Assembly: GCA_018333525.1 (NCBI GenBank)
Contig: JAGXTF010000012.1
Location: 1-64,000 of the forward strand
Reading direction: 5' to 3'
From: Bacteroidota bacterium
GTDB taxonomy: Bacteria > Bacteroidota > Bacteroidia > NS11-12g > UBA955
DNA length: 64,000 nt
Each line of letters begins with the position of its first letter. Position 1 is the stretch's first letter. Below the pieces are notes generated by a model. That model had not been told where the DNA came from. It saw only the letters and a list, made by a program, of their open reading frames with translations, and searched no databases. Below, piece after piece: positions 33,903 through 44,204 of the stretch. The translations under genes were made by a program, and so were the position numbers.

Positions 33903-34280
33903 TTATGAATTCAGCCAGGTAATGGCGTCGGACTCATTTTCGAAATACTTCTTGCGTGCTGTATCTGAAGTAGATATCAGACTGAAGAATTCGCGTTTGT
34001 TTGGAAGTACAATGGCAATTTTATCGATACCATTGTGCAACAGAGGGAGTTCCAGACTTGTTTTGGCCCAATCCTGCATATGATTACTCACATGATGGCT
34101 GAGCTCGTGGTTGTGAACCAGAACTTTGGTTACATTGTTGCTTACGGCGTGTGCTACAAATTGCAGAAAGGCAGATTTCATTGCCTCTTCGCTATTGATT
34201 TCATTGCTCAGTGAAATCTTCGCGATTCCACCATCCAACAGGTGTACACTAAATCCCGGGGTACTTTGTATTTGACTCAT
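33903..34280 (-). CDS. Small STAS/SpoIIAA-like protein
   Basis: The start is chosen at MSQIQSTPGFSVHLL (125 residues); the frame extends seven codons to an earlier ATG. The pattern (beta-rich opening IAKISLSNEIN, then VSNNVTKVLVHNHEL, then IDKIAIVLPNKREF and a C-terminal helix) resembles the STAS/SpoIIAA-like fold found in many Bacteroidota hypothetical proteins. No catalytic residues are evident. It lies 117 bases downstream of the FAD oxidase gene on the same strand and could be transcribed with it, though it need not belong to that cluster. Confidence 0.65.
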   Translation of the reverse strand: MSQIQSTPGFSVHLLDGGIAKISLSNEINSEEAMKSAFLQFVAHAVSNNVTKVLVHNHELSHHVSNHMQDWAKTSLELPLLHNGIDKIAIVLPNKREFFSLISTSDTARKKYFENESDAITWLNS

Positions 34281-34397
34281 GGCTAATAAATTAAATGCCA
34301 ATGTAGCACTTTGTTAACGTAATTCAAAACGAAAAACATCGCTTATCGTTGAATTTCATAAAATTACATATTTAAGATATCTTTTTAATGCAGAATT

Positions 34398-35750
34398 TTA
34401 ACTGAAATCCACAGGTTCGGCATTCAGCGTACCATACAACAAACCATCCGGGTTGTGTAGCTTGGACAAGTGCTCGATTTCCGTTGCACCTGTGCCGTAA
34501 TACTTTACAGAGATATTGTTTTCAGCCGGATCTGCATAATTCGGATATAGAAATCCATTCAAAAAGGGTTGCAATTTTTGATACGTTTCGTTTACCCATT
34601 GTGTAGCTCCGTAACGTTCCTGGTCTTCAAACCAAACACCCATAATGCTCAGAATAAAATTGGCATCCCTGTGTGCGAATGCAATTTCTGCATGATCCGG
34701 ATGTTGAATTTTCCCACTCAGTGTATCCAGATTGATTCTACAGTAAGGTGTAGGGCATTTGGAATAGGCATCTAATAGTATTTGTATGACTTCTGCAGCG
34801 ATATTCCCCTGAATGAGCCCATTCTTCCATTGAAAGCAGGGACCTTCAACAATCGTACTTGCATTGATCTGCTGCATTTCTGTATAGGAATAGGTGCCAA
34901 TATTATGAAATACCGGTTCAGCCCATTGAAGCATGGTTTGAAAGTAAGACATGCCTATTTCAGAATCTCCGTTATACATGCCATAAATCTTGATAATCGG
35001 ACCCATTTCCTGGTTGATGCGCAAGTACAGATTCAGAGCTTCCGGTGCATCCTGGAGCATTTTGTCGTAGAGAGGAAGGATTTCTTCTGCATGGTTCAAA
35101 TGCCAGCAAATATTACCGCCGACAACCTGTGCGGGAATGTCAGATAACCTGAATTTCAAACTGGTAACAATGCCGAAATTGCCCTGGCCGGCACCTTGCA
35201 GGGCTCGATACAGAGAAGTATTGGATGTTTTGTTGCATACCAAAACTTCACCACGCATATTGATCAATTCGGCCTCCAAAAGGTGATCGCAGGTTAGACC
35301 AAGTGATCTGGACAAAAAACCATTTCCGCCTCCGAGCGTGAGACCGGCTATCCCTACAACAGGGCAATCCCCGAGTGGAATGGCTTTGAGGTTTGGATTC
35401 AATGCAGCATCAATTTCGTGTGCCAAAGCTCCGGCACCAATTTCTACTGAATTTTCCTTCCAGTTGGGAGTAATGGTTTTGATTTTTCGCATGGATACCA
35501 CCAATCCATTTTCATTGAGACCTGAGCCCACGGTACTATGGCCACCATTTAAAACAGAAATGCGAATTTGATTTTGTTGCGCAAATAATACAGCTTGTAC
35601 AATATCCTCATTGGATTCTGCAACCAGAACTGCAATTGGTTTTTTTTGAAAATGACCGTTAAAAGTGAAGAGATTTTCGGAATATCCGGAATCTTCTTGT
35701 AAATAAATTTTACCCTTGCATGAAGCGCTCAGGACATTCCAGTCCAACAT
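34398..35750 (-). CDS. Berberine-bridge-type FAD-linked oxidase
   Basis: This 450-residue flavoprotein of the vanillyl-alcohol oxidase/BBE superfamily has the PP-loop region (RISVLNGGHSTVGSG, about residues 72-86), whose His normally binds the 8-alpha position of FAD. CPVVGIAGLTLGGGNG near residues 129-144 has Cys in the position of the second covalent link in bicovalent members. The BBE C-terminal segment (YYGTGATEIEHLSKLHNPDGLLYG) is present. There is no signal peptide, so it is cytosolic. It starts 22 bases after the Trp-Tyr repeat peptide gene and must share its transcript. It is a good candidate for oxidising that peptide, although BBE enzymes also oxidise sugars and alkaloids. Confidence 0.9.
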   Translation of the reverse strand: MLDWNVLSASCKGKIYLQEDSGYSENLFTFNGHFQKKPIAVLVAESNEDIVQAVLFAQQNQIRISVLNGGHSTVGSGLNENGLVVSMRKIKTITPNWKENSVEIGAGALAHEIDAALNPNLKAIPLGDCPVVGIAGLTLGGGNGFLSRSLGLTCDHLLEAELINMRGEVLVCNKTSNTSLYRALQGAGQGNFGIVTSLKFRLSDIPAQVVGGNICWHLNHAEEILPLYDKMLQDAPEALNLYLRINQEMGPIIKIYGMYNGDSEIGMSYFQTMLQWAEPVFHNIGTYSYTEMQQINASTIVEGPCFQWKNGLIQGNIAAEVIQILLDAYSKCPTPYCRINLDTLSGKIQHPDHAEIAFAHRDANFILSIMGVWFEDQERYGATQWVNETYQKLQPFLNGFLYPNYADPAENNISVKYYGTGATEIEHLSKLHNPDGLLYGTLNAEPVDFS

Positions 35751-35772: not shown

Positions 35773-35970
35773 TCAGTGCTTTTCGCGAATGTACCAGCCG
35801 GCACCTTTCCTATTTTCATTCAGGTACCATCCCGGTGTGCTTTTTTCATTCAAATACCATCCCGGAGTAGATTTACGCAAAGCAAAAGTGCTTTTGGGGT
35901 TTGGAATGGTTTCGAAATCAAAATTGTCTTTTGATGGGGTAACCGAGAATTCCATTTTCAATTTTTCCAT
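35773..35970 (-). CDS. Candidate RiPP precursor peptide with three Gly-Trp-Tyr repeats
   Basis: This peptide has 65 residues. Residues 1-33 form a charged leader-like region (MEKLKMEFSVTPSKDNFDFE, then IPNPKSTFALRK). The rest is three tandem units of about 10 residues, STPGWYLNEK (34-43), STPGWYLNEN (44-53) and, after R54, KGAGWYIREK (55-64), ending in His. Units 1 and 2 have nearly the same amino acids but use different codons for Ser, Thr, Tyr and Leu, so the peptide itself has been conserved. An exact promoter (36000-36029) lies upstream and an FAD oxidase gene 22 bases downstream. The divergent operon encodes a tryptophan halogenase. The function is inferred from context. Confidence 0.75.
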   Translation of the reverse strand: MEKLKMEFSVTPSKDNFDFETIPNPKSTFALRKSTPGWYLNEKSTPGWYLNENRKGAGWYIREKH

Positions 35971-35999: not shown

Positions 36000-36029
36000 C
36001 AAATATAATCAAAAGAAGCACAAAAACAA
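36000..36029 (-). promoter_or_regulatory. Promoter of the repeat-peptide/FAD oxidase operon
   Basis: On the minus strand TTG (36027-36029), a 19-base spacer and TATATTTG (36000-36007) match the Bacteroidota consensus TTG-N19-TAnnTTTG exactly. Transcription would start about 23 bases before the peptide ATG at 35970, which supports the small gene being expressed. Confidence 0.7.
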
Positions 36030-36422: not shown

Positions 36423-38402
36423 ATGCATAGAAATTACTTCCTCCTCATTTTATTTGTCTTTAATTTATCCTTATTCTCTCAAAACAACAACGCATTGCAA
36501 TGGAGCAATGACGTGCGGGAAATACAGGAGTTTCAGACAATTCCGGACCGAAATTTTAGTCCGAAATCGGCCATGTCACAGTCCAACTGGAGGGTGCATC
36601 ATTCAAATGAATCGAATTTGTCTGCCGACACAAATACCTATTGGGCGCGATTTGCATTGGTGAATCAAACGGATGCAGATCATACCTGGATTTTGGAATT
36701 GGATAAATGGACCGACGTTCAATTGTATATAAACGGAGATGATAAAAATCCAAAACGAACCGGACATTTTGTTGCCTTTGACAAAAAAGATTTTGCACAT
36801 GCAAATTACAATTTGTTGCGGGTGGATATACAAGCCGGAGACACAGTTTCCTGTTTGTTAAGGCTGGAGAAGTCCAACGCTTATTTCGCGGTTCCTGCCA
36901 GCTTTGAATTTAAGGCCATGAGTCTGGAAAAGTATTTTTCCAATCAATTTAAAAGCAGGATTTGGCTGGGATTGTTTCTCGGTTTTTATCTGATAATGCT
37001 CGCTCATAATTTATTTATTTACTGGTCTACCAAAGACCATTACTATGTGCATTATTTAATCATACTGGCCACACTGTTGTTGCTTACGCTACACAACTTC
37101 GGATATACGGTTTCCCTGCTGCATTTTATTCCCAATTACGGGTTTATCCATGCAAAGGTTCAATTTATTCTCAGTGCAATACTCGGTGTAAATATGATAT
37201 TATTTACCCAGCAGTTTCTGCATTTGAAAACCGAATTTCCGCGCATTCATAAATTGTTGCGCATATTGATGATTCTGGTTATTCTAATGCCATTACCCTC
37301 CTTCTTCGGACAGGCAGAAGTGAATGAAAAAATTTCCGGAATGTTGGGGACACTTACCATGATAGTGATCATGATTACTGCGGTTAAATCCTGGCTCGCG
37401 AAATTTCCTTCATCCGATTATTTTGTAGTGGGATACGGCGCATTTTCAACCGGAATTGTAGTTTTATTGCTGAGTTTTCTCGGTATTTTACCGGCCTATT
37501 TTCTGGAATATTATCCTATGAATATCGGTTCCAGTATTGAAATGATTTTCTTTTCCATTGCGTTGGGGAACCGAATTAATTTACTGGCGAGAGATAATGA
37601 AGAAAAACAAAAACTTATCATTACACAGCTTCGTGCCAATGAAGAATTGCAGACAAAAGTGAACCGGGAACTGGACCAAAAGGTAAAAGAACGCACGATA
37701 GAAATTGAAAAGCAAAAAATAGAAATTGAGGAGCAACGCGATTTGGTTGCCATGGAGAAAAAGAAATCCGATGAATTGATTCTGAATATTTTGCCAGCAG
37801 CAACTGCTGAAGAATTGAAGCTTACGGGAAAGGCAAAACCCCAATACTATGAATCTGCTTCCGTATTATTTGCCGATATAGTTTCATTCACCAAAAAAGC
37901 TATGGAAGCAGAGGCAAATGAAATTGTTGCAGATCTGGATTATTGTTTTGGTGCATTTGACACCATAATGATGAAATACAATATGGAAAAAATTAAAACC
38001 ATAGGCGACGGTTATCTGGCAGTTGGAGGCATTCCTATTGCAAATGAAAGCAATCCCATGGATGCCATACGGGCAGGGATGGAAATGCAGGAATTCATGA
38101 AATCCTTTGCTGCTGCGAGAAAAGCGAAGGGAAAAAATGAATGGGGAATTCGAATTGGAATTCACACAGGACCAATCATTGCCGGAGTTGTAGGTAAAAA
38201 TAAATTTGCCTATGATGTTTGGGGCGATACCGTAAATACTGCATCGCGAATGGAATCTGCAGGAGAAAGCGATCGTGTGAATGTTTCTGAAAGCACCTAT
38301 TTATTGGCAAAAAATCATTTTACATTCGCTCACAGGGGAAAAGTGCATGCAAAAAATATTGGTGAAATGGACATGTATTTTGTGGTGAAAGAATTGAATT
38401 AA
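36423..38402 (+). CDS. Membrane receptor with 7TMR-DISM-like part and class III adenylate cyclase
   Basis: This 659-residue protein has a signal peptide (residues 1-19) and a periplasmic beta domain (20-175, with YWARFALVNQTDADHTWILEL). Seven membrane helices follow (about 180-385), then a coiled coil (390-455, KQKIEIEEQRDLVAMEKKK) and a class III cyclase domain (about 460-659). The catalytic domain has the metal site SVLFADIVSFT and EKIKTIGDGYLAVGG with Lys. YDVWGDTVNTASRMES has the Asp and Arg expected for ATP rather than GTP. It should make cAMP in response to an external ligand. The next gene starts 14 bases later, so the receptor heads the VioB-like/halogenase operon. Confidence 0.92.
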   Translation: MHRNYFLLILFVFNLSLFSQNNNALQWSNDVREIQEFQTIPDRNFSPKSAMSQSNWRVHHSNESNLSADTNTYWARFALVNQTDADHTWILELDKWTDVQLYINGDDKNPKRTGHFVAFDKKDFAHANYNLLRVDIQAGDTVSCLLRLEKSNAYFAVPASFEFKAMSLEKYFSNQFKSRIWLGLFLGFYLIMLAHNLFIYWSTKDHYYVHYLIILATLLLLTLHNFGYTVSLLHFIPNYGFIHAKVQFILSAILGVNMILFTQQFLHLKTEFPRIHKLLRILMILVILMPLPSFFGQAEVNEKISGMLGTLTMIVIMITAVKSWLAKFPSSDYFVVGYGAFSTGIVVLLLSFLGILPAYFLEYYPMNIGSSIEMIFFSIALGNRINLLARDNEEKQKLIITQLRANEELQTKVNRELDQKVKERTIEIEKQKIEIEEQRDLVAMEKKKSDELILNILPAATAEELKLTGKAKPQYYESASVLFADIVSFTKKAMEAEANEIVADLDYCFGAFDTIMMKYNMEKIKTIGDGYLAVGGIPIANESNPMDAIRAGMEMQEFMKSFAAARKAKGKNEWGIRIGIHTGPIIAGVVGKNKFAYDVWGDTVNTASRMESAGESDRVNVSESTYLLAKNHFTFAHRGKVHAKNIGEMDMYFVVKELN

Positions 38403-38416
38403 AATCGAATTTACGC

Positions 38417-40654
38417 ATGTCGCAATTTGATTTTCCAAGGCTCAATTTTACAGGCAGAAGTTATATTGATCCGGCTACGGCCAATAATGGCTGGTTCGTG
38501 CCACTGGTAATATTTCAACCCATTTCCATAAAAGCAGTTTGTCCGCCCAGGGTTTATGTAGATGCGAAATTTATTTTGAATGGTAAGTCGCTGGAGGATA
38601 TTGAGGCAATATTACCACCGGGTGCAGAAATAAAAGAGGATTTTGAAGGGCTGTATAAGGGCGCGAAATATGTAGAAATATTGAGTATCCATACAGAATC
38701 GGTTTTTAAAGAATGGGCTGGAATTCCTTTGGGAAATTATGAAGCCGATAAAGCGTACTGGCGGCTGTATCAGGCTGTAGGCCCGAATGCAAAAGGTACC
38801 CAGTCTTTAATTGGCGCTACCCCCGGATATTGGAATTATTATGGAACCATGCAATACCGTTTTCTGCAAGCAGATATATGTAGTGTTGCGGTGAATGATA
38901 ACCATTCGGTTACACAAATATTTACTGAGGATTCGGAAAATTTGCCACCTGAAATAGGTGAAATGTTGGGTGCCAAACTGGATATGTTTTCGAAAATTGG
39001 GGATTATTCTACCCATGAAGCCGTAATGGTAGATCTGTTGCCCACAATGGCCATGTACAGCCAGATTTTTTGCAACAGATTGAACATGCTGAAAGGTGAT
39101 AAGGTCCTTTTTTCAGGCAGCCCCAAAAAAGGTTCCTTAAGGCTGGTAAATGCATTTCGCGTGGTAAATGAAAATATGCCACAGGGGGCATCCGGTACAT
39201 TTTTCTCGGCAATTCCTCTGGAAGATCTGGATGATGGTTTGCAATCTCCGGTGATTCAATTCTTGGATCAGTATAGAGATAAAAGTAGAAAATTAAAGGG
39301 CATATTTATCCAACAGGTAATATCAGAAGTCGAGGAAGTGAGATCTGTGAATTACAAACAAAACGGAAAAGTATCCAATGCGGCATTCGGAAAGCTCTGT
39401 GGAACCATTTCACCATGGTATGACGAGGATATGCTGAACTGGCCTGTTGCGAGACAACTCAATGGCGGAATTCCTTTTTTAAAACACAGTGTACCCGGAT
39501 ATATTTCACCTGTTGCAGTAATGACTCCGATGTTGTTTCAATTTCAGGAAGCACGCAATATGCTGGTAGTGGATTTTTTGAATAATTTTCCGGTAATCAA
39601 TACCTCACACTTTGGCGATACACCTGCAGAACCCAGCCCGAAAGAAACCAATACTTATGAAACTTACCCGCTGGGAACTCTGGATTTTGTATTGCAATAT
39701 GAATCGGAAAACAGTGTAGAGAATATCCCAATTGGTTCCATAACTATAGACCACAAAAACTGGCCCAGAGAGAAATATTTTAAAGAGGGCGGCATCGTAG
39801 AAATTCCTATTCCGGACCATTCAAATTTAAGCAGTGAAAAATTAAGGAATGGAAACCTTTTGGTTTTTAACAAACAAATTTCTGCAGATGCACCCTTGAT
39901 GATAGAAACTCCGTATGTAATTACTTCGGAACAGTGCGGCATGTATTCTGAAGTAGATCAGGATCCGGCGGTAGGCTTTCGAAGTAATAGCCATTTGCGC
40001 GAACCTTTTTTTATTCGAATTTTCAAACATGGCGTTCCACAAAAAGAAAAAACAAGAATTTATATCATTGAAATAAAAATCAGTGATGGGGGTGCAATGA
40101 AACAGGAACGTTTGTATCGGATCGAAGATTACTGCGATATGGATCGCATTACCTTTCCCAATCACGAGGCTGCAAATGCAATTTATTTGTTTTCGGCAAA
40201 CGCACCACAGTTGCCATTAACACCGCAGTACCCGGTGCAACTGTTAACAACCGGTTTTTTTGTAAATCTGAAAGTTTTGCCAACCCATGATTACGGAAGG
40301 TTTTTAAATCCGAAACATCCTGAATACAGAAAGGTAACCTTTGCAGATTTGTACGACGAAATTTTTAAGACCTATTCTATGATAACTCCATTGATGCGTT
40401 TTGAAAAACACCGTTGGGATAATGAACATATGGCAAAATTACTGGTGGAAAAAACCCACCCTGAATTCTGGGCAGATGCAGGTTATATGCCTATTAGCCG
40501 CGATCTTTCAGAAGACCAGTTGGAACTGATCTGGCAATGGGCATCGGAATTTAAAAAACTGGAAAAACCAATTCCCATTCGCGGATTAAAGAAAGAAATG
40601 GCGACGATTTTAAAAACGGAGCATTTAGATGGAATTGAATTTTTTAATAAATAA
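38417..40654 (+). CDS. VioB N-terminal-like protein
   Basis: This 745-residue protein has no signal peptide. Its opening FDFPRLNFTGRSYIDPATANN closely follows the start of violacein enzyme VioB (DFPRIHFRGWARVNAPTAN). Its end, GYMPISRDLSEDQLELIWQW, matches VioB just before the ferritin-like domain (YYMPSTRELSAPKARLFLKYL). The ferritin-like catalytic domain is absent here and is encoded two genes later. In VioB and its relatives StaD and RebD this half has no proven separate activity. Here it may act as a scaffold or partner. Its neighbour 15 bases downstream is the halogenase gene. Confidence 0.8.
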   Translation: MSQFDFPRLNFTGRSYIDPATANNGWFVPLVIFQPISIKAVCPPRVYVDAKFILNGKSLEDIEAILPPGAEIKEDFEGLYKGAKYVEILSIHTESVFKEWAGIPLGNYEADKAYWRLYQAVGPNAKGTQSLIGATPGYWNYYGTMQYRFLQADICSVAVNDNHSVTQIFTEDSENLPPEIGEMLGAKLDMFSKIGDYSTHEAVMVDLLPTMAMYSQIFCNRLNMLKGDKVLFSGSPKKGSLRLVNAFRVVNENMPQGASGTFFSAIPLEDLDDGLQSPVIQFLDQYRDKSRKLKGIFIQQVISEVEEVRSVNYKQNGKVSNAAFGKLCGTISPWYDEDMLNWPVARQLNGGIPFLKHSVPGYISPVAVMTPMLFQFQEARNMLVVDFLNNFPVINTSHFGDTPAEPSPKETNTYETYPLGTLDFVLQYESENSVENIPIGSITIDHKNWPREKYFKEGGIVEIPIPDHSNLSSEKLRNGNLLVFNKQISADAPLMIETPYVITSEQCGMYSEVDQDPAVGFRSNSHLREPFFIRIFKHGVPQKEKTRIYIIEIKISDGGAMKQERLYRIEDYCDMDRITFPNHEAANAIYLFSANAPQLPLTPQYPVQLLTTGFFVNLKVLPTHDYGRFLNPKHPEYRKVTFADLYDEIFKTYSMITPLMRFEKHRWDNEHMAKLLVEKTHPEFWADAGYMPISRDLSEDQLELIWQWASEFKKLEKPIPIRGLKKEMATILKTEHLDGIEFFNK

Positions 40655-40669
40655 TCAGTCATCCAAAGA

Positions 40670-42550
40670 ATGGAAATTAAAATACCGGATAAATTAACAG
40701 ACGTAGATATTTTACTTCCGGCCAGCGGTGAAATAATAATTCGCAGAAACAGGGATGTAAATCAAATTAATGGTATAGCACCGGAGTTATTTATTAAAAT
40801 ATGGAACAACATAGACGGAATAAAAAGCACTACAGAAATTCACGCCCAATGTGCAGAGGATTTAACTCCTGAAAATCTAACAGATTTCTTGAACACCATC
40901 AACGGTATATGCATTCGTTTTGTTGGTGAAAAATTAGAAACCGTTCAGTTACATAAATCTCCGGAGGCCGGAGAAAAAATGATACCCTTACTGGCGCCGG
41001 AGGATTTTGATGGTGTTTGTGTGAGGAATTTAGATGCCGGAAAAGATGCAGATCAGATTTATAAAAAAGTGGTAGTGGTGGGTGGCGGTACGGCAGGTTA
41101 TTTTACTGCATTGGCATTGAAGAAAAAAAGACCGGAATTACAGGTAACTATTGTTGAAAGTACTGGTATTCCGGTAATTGGGGTAGGGGAAGCAACCACT
41201 CCTGTGATACTGTCTTTTTTGCATGAAGTACTGGATATCCATCCCATGGATTTATATGAAGCGGTAAGACCTTCATGGAAACTGGGTATTAAATTCGATT
41301 GGGGTCTTCCCGGTGATTATCACTTTTTTAATCCATTTGGATTAAATAATCTTTTAGAAAGCGATTATTATAACAACGGCCTGGATTATGTAACATTGGG
41401 AACCACCCTGATGATGCAGGGGAAGGGATTAATAGCGAGAAAGAGAAACGGAGAATATTATTCTCTGATGAATCAGGTGGGATATGCCTATCATTTGGAA
41501 AACAGAAATCTGATTCAATTTTTGAGAAGTATTATTCTGAAATCGGATATTGAATGGCTGGACCGTGTGGTGAAAAATGTGAAAGTGGATGAAAATGGAG
41601 ATGTTTCAGCAATTGTTACGGACCGGGAAGAGGAGTTGTCGTATGACCTGTATATCGATTGCAGCGGTTTCAAATCTCTGTTACTGGAAGGTGCAATGAA
41701 AAGTGAATTTATTCCATTTGATAAAACACTTTTTACGGATCGGGCAGTAACGGGAATTTACAATATTGAAGGGAATCCAAATCCTTTTACATTGGCACAG
41801 AGCATGCACCATGGCTGGAACTGGAATATTCCGGTGGATGGGGAAAACCACAGGGGATATGTGCATGCTTCTGCTTTTTGCACCGTGGATGAAGCCATGG
41901 CAGAAATGCAAAAAGTAAATCCCCAGATTACCGATTTTAAAGTAGTTCATTTCAAGTCCGGAAGGCACAGGGAATTTTGGAAAAACAATGTAATCGCCAT
42001 TGGCAATTCTTATGCATTTGTAGAACCCTTGGAATCCACCGGTCTGCATATGATTATTGAAAGTGTAAAGACATTGCTGAAAAATCTTCCGGCTGAAAAG
42101 GGGAATAACACAGCCATTCGCGAAGCAGTGAACCAAAAAGTTGCCATGCAATGGGATTACATCAAATGGTTTTTGGGAATACATTTTAAATACAACAAAA
42201 AATTTGATACCCCATATTGGAAACATTGCCGAAATGAAACAGATGTTTCCGGTGTGCAGGACTTGCTGGACCTCTATGGACAAATAGGACCACTCACCAT
42301 TATTGCAGAAAATGATCCGGAAATATTGCAGTCTTTGGTACATGACCAGGTTTTTGGTGCTCACGGTTTTGATTATATGCTGATGGGCCAGAAAGTGCCT
42401 TGGGGCAAGCAGTTTCGTGTAGTACCTGAAAAAAGCGACTATTTGGAAAAGAGAAAAAAATGGCAGGAAATTGCAGATGAAGCATTAAGCCATAAAGAAT
42501 CGCTGGATTTGTTCAAAAACCATCCCGATTTAATTCGAGAAATAATATGA
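40670..42550 (+). CDS. Flavin-dependent tryptophan halogenase-like enzyme with N-terminal RRE/PqqD-like domain
   Basis: This 626-residue protein has a halogenase domain starting near 133 with the FAD loop VVVGGGTAGYF, then GVGEATTP (171-178) and SWKLGIKF, where K204 aligns with catalytic Lys79 of PrnA. GWNWNIP (GWxWxIP) and EPLESTGL, with the Glu/Ser of PrnA 346-347, are also present. An active halogenase or flavin oxygenase is expected. Residues 1-95 are extra. GIAPELFIKIWNNIDG and TEIHAQC, then LTDFLNTINGICIRF, follow the PqqD/RiPP-recognition-element pattern. This suggests that the enzyme grips a peptide leader. A separate flavin reductase is not visible in the window. The stop overlaps the next start by four bases. 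Confidence 0.85.
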   Translation: MEIKIPDKLTDVDILLPASGEIIIRRNRDVNQINGIAPELFIKIWNNIDGIKSTTEIHAQCAEDLTPENLTDFLNTINGICIRFVGEKLETVQLHKSPEAGEKMIPLLAPEDFDGVCVRNLDAGKDADQIYKKVVVVGGGTAGYFTALALKKKRPELQVTIVESTGIPVIGVGEATTPVILSFLHEVLDIHPMDLYEAVRPSWKLGIKFDWGLPGDYHFFNPFGLNNLLESDYYNNGLDYVTLGTTLMMQGKGLIARKRNGEYYSLMNQVGYAYHLENRNLIQFLRSIILKSDIEWLDRVVKNVKVDENGDVSAIVTDREEELSYDLYIDCSGFKSLLLEGAMKSEFIPFDKTLFTDRAVTGIYNIEGNPNPFTLAQSMHHGWNWNIPVDGENHRGYVHASAFCTVDEAMAEMQKVNPQITDFKVVHFKSGRHREFWKNNVIAIGNSYAFVEPLESTGLHMIIESVKTLLKNLPAEKGNNTAIREAVNQKVAMQWDYIKWFLGIHFKYNKKFDTPYWKHCRNETDVSGVQDLLDLYGQIGPLTIIAENDPEILQSLVHDQVFGAHGFDYMLMGQKVPWGKQFRVVPEKSDYLEKRKKWQEIADEALSHKESLDLFKNHPDLIREII

Positions 42551-43596
42551 ATTCCGAAAATCGCGAAAAAATAATTCAGGAATTACAGGAAAAACTGATT
42601 GTAACCATTGAACTGGAACATTCCACAATTCCTCCTTATTTATATGCGTACTGGTCTGTAAAGGACAGGTCTTCTGAAACAGCCAGAGTACTGCTGGAAG
42701 TGGCAAAAGAAGAGATGATGCATATGGCAATGGCATGTAATATTTTACATGCCACCGGAGGTACTTTAAAATGCAACCATCCGGGTTTTATTCCGGATTA
42801 TCCATGTGCTTTACCAGGACATAGCAAAACGCAAACTCCATTTATTGTGGGATTAAGAAAATTATCCCTGTTAAGTATCGTTACATTTCTTGAAATTGAA
42901 AGACCACGAGCCGCCAATCCTCTGGTGAAATTAAATAAACCGGGAACGAATAAACCTATTGATGCAGGCTGGGAAACCATAGCTGATTTTTATATGGAAA
43001 TTACAGCACTTATAGCCAAATTGGATGACAGTGATTTTCAAAAAGGAAGGCAATTAAACAACACGGATAAACCAGATAACAGTGGAATATTGTTTGCCGT
43101 ACAGAGCAAAGCGGATGCATTAAAATGTGTTGCTGAAATAATAGAACAGGGAGAAGGATTTGGATTTCAGGATGCCGATTCTGAGGAATCCCATTTTTAT
43201 CGTTTCGTGGATATTTACCGAAAAATGGGGGGCACCGGAAAAATTGAAGATGGCATTTTCAATGCAAACGAATTGCGAGATACCTATGATAAAAATGTGT
43301 ATGCGGAATTTGAAAAACAAATTATACATCTGGTACCAAATCCGAGAGAAGACAAATACAGTACCGAGGCATATGAATGGCAGAATAAAAGATTTAATTC
43401 CATTTATAGCCGCATGCTGGATGACTTATGCAGTGGAATGTTAATGGATAACCCTGAAATTGGCGGAGCGATAAAAGCCATGTTTGCATTGGGAAGACAT
43501 GCCGATGCCATTATGAGTATACCTGCCTGGAGAGAAGTGGAAACTGCGCATTTCGGACCCAGTTTTGAATATTTGGAACCAGGCGAAAGAATCTGA
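42547..43596 (+). CDS. Ferritin-like protein resembling VioB C-terminal domain
   Basis: This 349-residue protein is of the ferritin-like type found at the C-terminus of VioB/RebD/StaD (iminophenylpyruvate dimer synthase domain). Helix 1 carries ELEHSTIPPYLYAYW, helix 2 KEEMMHMAMACNIL, and later helices FLEIERP and EESHFYRF. Together these give the two E-x-x-H pairs expected for a di-iron or related metal centre. It is translationally coupled to the halogenase (ATGA overlap). With the VioB N-terminal-like protein it rebuilds a complete VioB in two parts. In this setting it may act on a modified Trp/Tyr peptide rather than on free indolepyruvate imine, which is inference. Confidence 0.85.
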   Translation: MNSENREKIIQELQEKLIVTIELEHSTIPPYLYAYWSVKDRSSETARVLLEVAKEEMMHMAMACNILHATGGTLKCNHPGFIPDYPCALPGHSKTQTPFIVGLRKLSLLSIVTFLEIERPRAANPLVKLNKPGTNKPIDAGWETIADFYMEITALIAKLDDSDFQKGRQLNNTDKPDNSGILFAVQSKADALKCVAEIIEQGEGFGFQDADSEESHFYRFVDIYRKMGGTGKIEDGIFNANELRDTYDKNVYAEFEKQIIHLVPNPREDKYSTEAYEWQNKRFNSIYSRMLDDLCSGMLMDNPEIGGAIKAMFALGRHADAIMSIPAWREVETAHFGPSFEYLEPGERI

Positions 43597-44204
43597 TGAA
43601 AAAAGGATTATGGTTGCCTTTTTTGATTAGTGTAGCAATTGTAATTGCAATATTTCTTCTATTTCCTGAAGCCGAAAATTATTTTCAAATCGCATTACAA
43701 AATGTTAAAGAGAGCAAATCCACCTTTTCAGTTTGGAGTTTTTTAATTCTCACTTCCGACATTTTTTTACCCGTTCCATCCAGCATTGTTATGTACTTCA
43801 ACGGTTTGGTTCTTGGAGTAATTTGGGGTTTTTTGCTTTCGATGTTTTCTGTGTTTTTATCTTCGGCTTTAGGATATTATGCAGGTAGAATTGGAGCCTG
43901 GGGTGTGAAAGCAGTAGAGGATGAAAAAGCAAATGCTTTTATGGAGAAATACGGAATGTTGGCAATTTTGATTAGCAGGGGAATACCGGTACTTTCTGAA
44001 AGTATTTGTTTTGTGAGTGGCTACAGGAAATTCCCTTTTGGAAAATATATGGCATATTCCGTGCTCGGTTATTTGCCGGTTGCAATCATATATGCATGCT
44101 TTGGTACTTTGGGTGAAAGCCAGGATTTGTTTTTGATATCTTTTGGTGCGTCCCTGTTGTTTTCCGGATTGATTTATGTGGCAGTTTCCCGATGGAGAAA
44201 GTGA
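43596..44204 (+). CDS. DedA/VTT-domain membrane protein
   Basis: This 202-residue integral membrane protein has about five hydrophobic segments. It also has the VTT/SNARE-associated Golgi signature (FLPVPSSIVMYFNGLVLG, LGYYAGRIG, and SRGIPVLSESICFVSGYRKFPFGKY in pieces). DedA-like proteins move or flip lipids, and some act as transporters. The start overlaps the preceding stop (TGATG), making it the last gene of the halogenase operon. It could serve export or self-protection for the cluster product, but a chance neighbour cannot be excluded. Confidence 0.9.
   Translation: MKKGLWLPFLISVAIVIAIFLLFPEAENYFQIALQNVKESKSTFSVWSFLILTSDIFLPVPSSIVMYFNGLVLGVIWGFLLSMFSVFLSSALGYYAGRIGAWGVKAVEDEKANAFMEKYGMLAILISRGIPVLSESICFVSGYRKFPFGKYMAYSVLGYLPVAIIYACFGTLGESQDLFLISFGASLLFSGLIYVAVSRWRK

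Follow-up and report, generated by a model that had tools for sequence, protein, structure and literature searches.

Does a short open reading frame (ORF) with a recurring Gly-Trp-Tyr motif, found in the window (the whole 64,000-nucleotide stretch of Bacteroidota DNA analysed in this study), constitute a gene, and if so, what is its 65-aa product made for? The ORF was examined together with its neighbours and with related loci in other genomes. The features discussed below are collected in Table 1.

Table 1 Positions of the features in the window and in related loci.
Feature	Location	Strand	Remarks
TAnnTTTG -7-like box, TATATTTG	36000..36007	minus	exact; end separated from the peptide ATG by 29 bases
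Precursor-like peptide ORF	35773..35970	minus	65 aa; ORF list, in-frame homologue, pS > pN
FAD-linked oxidase, EncM / 6-hydroxy-D-nicotine-oxidase type	34398..35750	minus	450 aa; 51% identical in G070
SpoIIAA-like protein	33903..34301	minus	132 aa; third operon gene; 46% identical in G070
7TMR-DISM receptor with adenylate/guanylate cyclase domain	36423..38402	plus	659 aa; 57% identical in G070
VioBN (VioB N-part-like) protein	38417..40654	plus	745 aa; 53-54% identical in G070
Flavin-dependent Trp halogenase	40670..42550	plus	626 aa; extra N-terminal PqqD/RRE-like domain, approximately residues 10-85; 60% identical in G070
PF12902 ferritin-like protein, VioB C-part-like	42547..43596	plus	349 aa; 46-49% identical in G070
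VTT/DedA-type membrane protein	43596..44204	plus	202 aa; overlaps, at its start, with the end of the preceding ferritin-like gene
Homologous peptide ORF, MSIQNQKKQVSVASCNTNDFDDMQKPAVKASANTPGWYVHEDAKTPGWYIHEDKA	L002 1495-1662	minus	G070; in-frame, same place in the cluster
Trp-ending small protein	L031 12954-13208	plus
Trp-ending small protein	L023 13459-13734	plus
Trp-ending small protein	L032 4317-4592	minus
Trp-ending small protein	L024 13286-13537	plus
VTT/DedA copy	L031 13306-13932	plus	G064; 44% identical
Tandem MibH-like halogenases	L039 8054-9622 and 9935-11485	plus	G291; without N-terminal domain
C39-like/papain-like cysteine peptidase	L023 13845-14507	plus
C39-like/papain-like cysteine peptidase	L032 3539-4231	minus
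Protein of approximately 320-360 aa	L023 10090-11169	plus
Protein of approximately 320-360 aa	L024 8267-9232	plus
Protein of approximately 320-360 aa	L032 6856-7941	minus
VioBN with a different cyclase	L025 11276-13813	minus
VioBN with a different cyclase	L026 11075-13624	minus

Peptide gene with repeated Gly-Trp-Tyr units

The peptide has the layout MEKLKMEFSVTPSKDNFDFETIPNPKSTFALRK-STPGWYLNEK-STPGWYLNEN-RKGAGWYIREKH, in which a putative leader (approximately residues 1-33) would precede a repeated core (approximately residues 34-65). STPGWYLNE occurs twice, as unit 1 (S34-E42) and unit 2 (S44-E52), and the codons for Ser (TCT/AGC), Thr (ACT/ACA), Tyr (TAT/TAC), and Leu (TTG/CTG) differ between the two exactly as the original prediction had listed them, those for Pro, Gly, Trp, Asn, and Glu being the same. 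The third unit, GAGWYIREK, retains Gly-Trp-Tyr and differs elsewhere, again as had been described. Units 1 and 2 were identical at 21 of 27 bases, and all six differences were silent. Six random substitutions left a nine-residue peptide intact in 12 of 400,000 simulations, a figure that refers to a pattern picked by eye, so that independent evidence weighs more.

Among 97 related genomes, one convincing homologue was found (G070, contig C28; E 5.5e-6). This peptide was 38% identical to the window peptide, the TPGWY..E units being best conserved and the N-terminus more variable. Its units read TPGWYVHE and TPGWYIHE, and the repeat consensus common to both peptides was TPGWY[LVI][NH]E. Stops and frameshifts through the repeats were looked for in this one relative; its ORF was intact and the TPGWY units were in frame.

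As had been proposed, silent (pS) and non-silent (pN) differences were compared across the repeat units. The value of pS exceeded that of pN in every unit pair, both within and between the two species: 0.60 and 0.00 for units 1 and 2 of the window peptide, 0.62 and 0.05 for the two units of the G070 peptide (differences mainly silent), and 0.52-0.97 and 0.11-0.27 for the window-to-G070 pairs, these counts being small because the units are merely 8-9 codons long and coming from a gene present in one further species only. The silent-only differences between units 1 and 2, the same pattern in G070, and the excess of pS bear out the earlier view that selection acts on the peptide and not on DNA repetition. 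Because of the in-frame homologue and the silent-biased unit differences, the 65-aa ORF is a protein-coding gene under purifying selection. A chance ORF or a functionless DNA-level tandem duplication has hardly any probability left: although the ORF is short, is overlapped by antisense ORFs in the window, and has one known homologue only, such an origin is ruled out by the in-frame homologue at the same locus and the silent-only pattern in both species, and moreover the other two minus-strand frames in the window are interrupted by stops and no plus-strand ORF of at least 40 aa was found over the G070 homologue.

The other matches among the 97 genomes were rejected for in-frame stops, location inside long ORFs, or a low score. 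Two further matches had the same faults, the one in L015 being an unrelated repeat ORF. The match between the G070 peptide and the Spt5 CTD repeat (PF12815, E 0.0076) was below the cut-off, concerned a TP-rich repeat, and was taken as convergence. The window peptide matched no family in Pfam and NCBIfam, including the curated RiPP precursor models, and neither it nor the VioBN protein had relatives in the viral contigs, phages, and plasmids searched. It had also been supposed that length-limited gene callers would miss the gene; this is doubtful because 65 aa exceeds the usual minimum length of common callers.

An exact promoter 30 bases upstream had been claimed. An exact copy of TAnnTTTG, the Bacteroidota-type -7 box motif, is present at that distance, and no sigma-70 site was found in the upstream region. 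The motif occurs 54 times on the two strands of the window (approximately 0.025 per 60 nt), and the region upstream of the G070 peptide contained only one-mismatch versions. Because of these inexact boxes in G070, a promoter of the peptide gene at this site is plausible but unproven. A TAnnTTTG box also precedes the cyclase gene on the opposite strand, beginning 31 bases ahead of its ATG.

Conserved gene cluster and its halogenase

The minus-strand set begins, in either genome, with the peptide gene, which is followed by the genes for the FAD oxidase (22 bases downstream in the window) and the SpoIIAA-like protein. The plus-strand set, divergent from the peptide gene, consists of the genes for the cyclase, VioBN, the halogenase, and the ferritin-like protein, in an order and orientation identical in the window genome (G000) and G070. 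Since the two genomes belong to different families of one order and to separate assemblies, the cassette is unlikely to be an artefact of assembly. It is rare, having been seen in these two genomes only, and a genome-wide scan with the FAD oxidase recovered the G070 contig alone. At the sequence level, the conservation of the cassette, the families of its enzymes, and the presence of a MibH-like halogenase with its catalytic motifs are established; the arrangement, a short gene-encoded precursor conserved beside putative peptide-modifying enzymes, is that of a RiPP cluster.

The best solved relative of the FAD oxidase was EncM (6fyd, E 1.2e-53), and the enzyme is homologous to EncM and 6-hydroxy-D-nicotine oxidase, with the GGHS region around the His conserved. 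Whereas these two act on polyketides or nicotine derivatives, the window oxidase gene adjoins a peptide gene, with which it is probably co-transcribed. The 7TMR-DISM cyclase is a probable sensor or regulator. Among the cassette proteins scanned, none was recognised as a leader protease, as a dedicated exporter, or as the marker of a known RiPP class; the protease and exporter may lie elsewhere in the genome, as happens with many RiPP clusters. Membership of the VTT/DedA protein in the cluster is possible but unproven. A copy of its gene adjoins the VioBN/cyclase locus of another genome (G064), and none was seen in L013. Adjoining VioBN/cyclase loci in two genomes, the protein is a possible candidate for an exporter or immunity protein.

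The halogenase matched PF04820 (E 1.3e-105). Among solved structures, the best match by a wide margin was 5UAO (415 bits), with RebH (227 bits) next. The 5UAO structure is that of MibH, the enzyme responsible for Trp chlorination in the lanthipeptide NAI-107 (PMC10858898; PMC12518702). The motifs GGGTAG, PSWKLGIKF (the catalytic-Lys region), WNWNIP, and PLESTG were retained in the window and G070 enzymes, and the generalised forms GxGxxG and WxWxIP, the catalytic Lys, and the Glu of PLESTG were found in both copies and in the alignment with MibH. MibH, ChlH (chlorolassin), and SrpI (a proteusin brominase) are of the same flavin-dependent halogenase family, and the known members of this group modify Trp within ribosomal peptides (PMC12518702, PMC10858898). 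Unlike the lanthipeptide and lasso systems, the window cluster contained no recognised lanthionine or lasso enzymes. A relative of the halogenase on a Streptomyces plasmid (38.6% identity) adjoins NRPS genes; the MibH-like branch is therefore not confined to RiPPs, and similarity to MibH alone is no proof of a peptide substrate.

The first approximately 130 residues of the halogenase had no counterpart in MibH, the alignment beginning at profile position 138. For the N-terminus of the G070 enzyme, PF05402 was the sole Pfam family reported, in a match (E 0.17) too weak to reach the Pfam cut-off. When the two N-termini were compared by hhalign with a profile of 28 PqqD stretches from Bacteroidota genomes, the score was 31.7 (probability 81), against a maximum of 17.3 in 200 column shuffles used as the control. 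The AlphaFold model of the domain, of low confidence (mean pLDDT 47.5), had the secondary structure order of an RRE (bbb-aaa), and its weak Foldseek matches (E approximately 1-5) included the RRE-bearing LynD, ThcOx, TruD, and McbB. The model of the full-length halogenase was too poor to use (mean pLDDT 32.7). Taken together, these individually weak lines from profile comparison and modelling make it quite probable that the N-terminus is an RRE.

In LynD, TruD, and ThcOx, as predicted for the window enzyme, a small bbb-aaa domain is N-terminal on the modifying enzyme, beside a short precursor gene, whereas the fusion partner of the RRE-like domain in the window is a flavin-dependent halogenase. 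Compared with MibH and SrpI, the window enzyme has an additional N-terminus of approximately 130 aa with an RRE-like domain; the leader must be gone before MibH can act, and SrpI lacks an embedded RRE (PMC10858898). No RRE-halogenase fusion was found in Pfam, NCBIfam, and the open-licence PubMed Central papers searched. We know of no RRE-fused flavin-dependent halogenase described before. In the text of a 2025 RRE survey, halogenases appeared in the reference list only (PMC12710340).

In two samples of 395 genomes, a single other halogenase above the threshold was found, in G291. It had neither the N-terminal domain nor an adjoining cassette partner. In this genome, two tandem MibH-like halogenase genes (L039) are flanked by genes resembling those for glycan/acyl-transfer and hydrolase enzymes.

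VioB-like pair and the possible pathway

Seven of the eight members of the 745-aa protein family matched positions 503-584 of the VioB profile (best E 9.6e-13); the window member itself had no direct family match. The ferritin-like protein matched positions 662-834 of 1003. As the 745-aa family and the ferritin-like protein match consecutive parts of VioB, these parts are separate genes in the window. Membership of VioB (TIGR04492) was rejected, since the best score was 46.8 bits against a cut-off of 1250 for a single chain of approximately 1000 residues. Judged from these alignments, the pair is a distant VioB homologue and not a VioB. Compared with VioB, StaD, and RebD of the violacein and rebeccamycin-type Trp-dimer pathways, the window system is divided between two genes, reaches no more than 47 of the 1250 bits required for VioB, showed no VioA/RebO partner, and is associated with Trp-containing peptides.

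On this evidence, we consider it likely that the 65-aa peptide is a RiPP precursor of a new type, the core units of which would be halogenated and oxidised by the cluster enzymes. The PqqD/RRE-like domain fused to the halogenase would bind the leader, and the halogenase would modify the Trp, or less likely the Tyr, of each Gly-Trp-Tyr core unit. The EncM-like oxidase, probably produced from the transcript of the precursor, might further oxidise or couple aromatic side chains, for which VioBN and the ferritin-like protein could provide additional oxidation or coupling. The 7TMR-DISM cyclase would detect a signal and control the cluster. The precursor status of the peptide is well supported. We infer that it is the substrate of these enzymes, and the order of the steps, the halide, and the structure and role of the product are likewise to be read conditionally. 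The location of the peptide and halogenase genes on divergent transcripts counts against a joint pathway.

Two other readings accept a real peptide, and we regard each as improbable. First, the peptide could be no more than a carrier for the halogenation and oxidation of Trp (or Tyr), the end product being a small halogenated molecule of the (bis)indole type that is set free after coupling of the VioB kind, known from violacein and rebeccamycin. The halogenase, the VioB-like halves, and the flavin oxidase resemble an enzyme set for Trp dimers; VioB dimerises the IPA imine made from Trp (PMC9705886), and a peptide-scaffold route with Trp halogenation is known for ammosamide (PMC12424672). However, neither a VioA/RebO-type amine oxidase nor a LanB-like peptide aminoacyl-tRNA ligase (PEARL) was found among the neighbouring window genes scanned, and the Trp is encoded within repeated, conserved core units and not added C-terminally. 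A PEARL pathway as such was rejected, the gene being missing from the cassette.

Second, an equally slight chance is given to an unmodified peptide, secreted or used for signalling, or acting as a docking or regulatory partner of the cyclase or the FAD oxidase, with neighbours unrelated to its chemistry. Its gene directly adjoins that of the sensor cyclase, no maturation protease is nearby, and a small protein is likewise encoded divergently from the cyclase in related VioBN/cyclase loci. However, no signal peptide was evident by eye, and the tandem GWY units together with an RRE-like halogenase are more economically read as core and leader, that is, as a modified precursor.

RiPPs and peptide halogenases are already known; the GWY-peptide cluster is probably a new RiPP class. 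No pathway combining VioB with a peptide was found in the open-licence PubMed Central papers searched, and the VioB-like partners and this precursor family were not found in Pfam, NCBIfam, and the same papers. If the precursor reading is true, the locus would provide an unannotated precursor family, the first RRE-fused flavin-dependent halogenase that we know of, and an example of VioB-like enzymes that modify ribosomal peptides. For the halogenation of peptides at specific sites, RRE-guided halogenases that accept short repeated cores would make useful catalysts.

VioBN/cyclase loci in other Bacteroidota

The 745-aa family recurs with the cyclase in further Bacteroidota. In four such loci (L023, L024, L031, and L032), a protein of 84-92 aa is encoded divergently from the cyclase, at the position of the GWY gene, and all four proteins have a C-terminal Trp. 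Within the genus of G332, the Trp-ending protein was present in three of three genomes with VioBN and in none of 10 without it, a distribution with a chance of 1 in 286 if the genomes are independent, two of the three positive ones having been in the query alignment. It was absent from G000 and G070, which carry the GWY peptide instead, and from G190 and G221, the cyclase of which is of another type. These results suggest that small proteins bearing Trp are working partners of the VioBN family.

A broader proposal is that a new Bacteroidota RiPP class is defined by two enzymes acting on peptide Trp, a halogenase fused to an RRE and a VioB-like coupling enzyme split in two, and that VioBN/7TMR-DISM-cyclase loci more widely modify peptide Trp, so that VioB-type chemistry would reach beyond free amino acids to peptides. 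We put this forward tentatively, as it is rather less likely to be right than wrong; the wider part is based on the small proteins with a strictly conserved C-terminal Trp that occupy the corresponding position in four to five other genomes. Through the association of VioB-like proteins with sensor cyclases and small proteins bearing Trp, the function of a family not covered by Pfam and NCBIfam becomes open to testing.

Several other genes were observed at these loci. In L023 and L032, a C39-like/papain-like cysteine peptidase gene adjoins that of the Trp-ending protein and is a candidate for the leader protease of that system. A protein of approximately 320-360 aa that matches no Pfam family significantly is encoded beside or convergently with VioBN in L023, L024, and L032. 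In L025 and L026, VioBN is accompanied by a cyclase of a different kind and by a protein of 400 aa, FIST-like by eye, a pairing that suggests the use of VioBN in other signalling loci.
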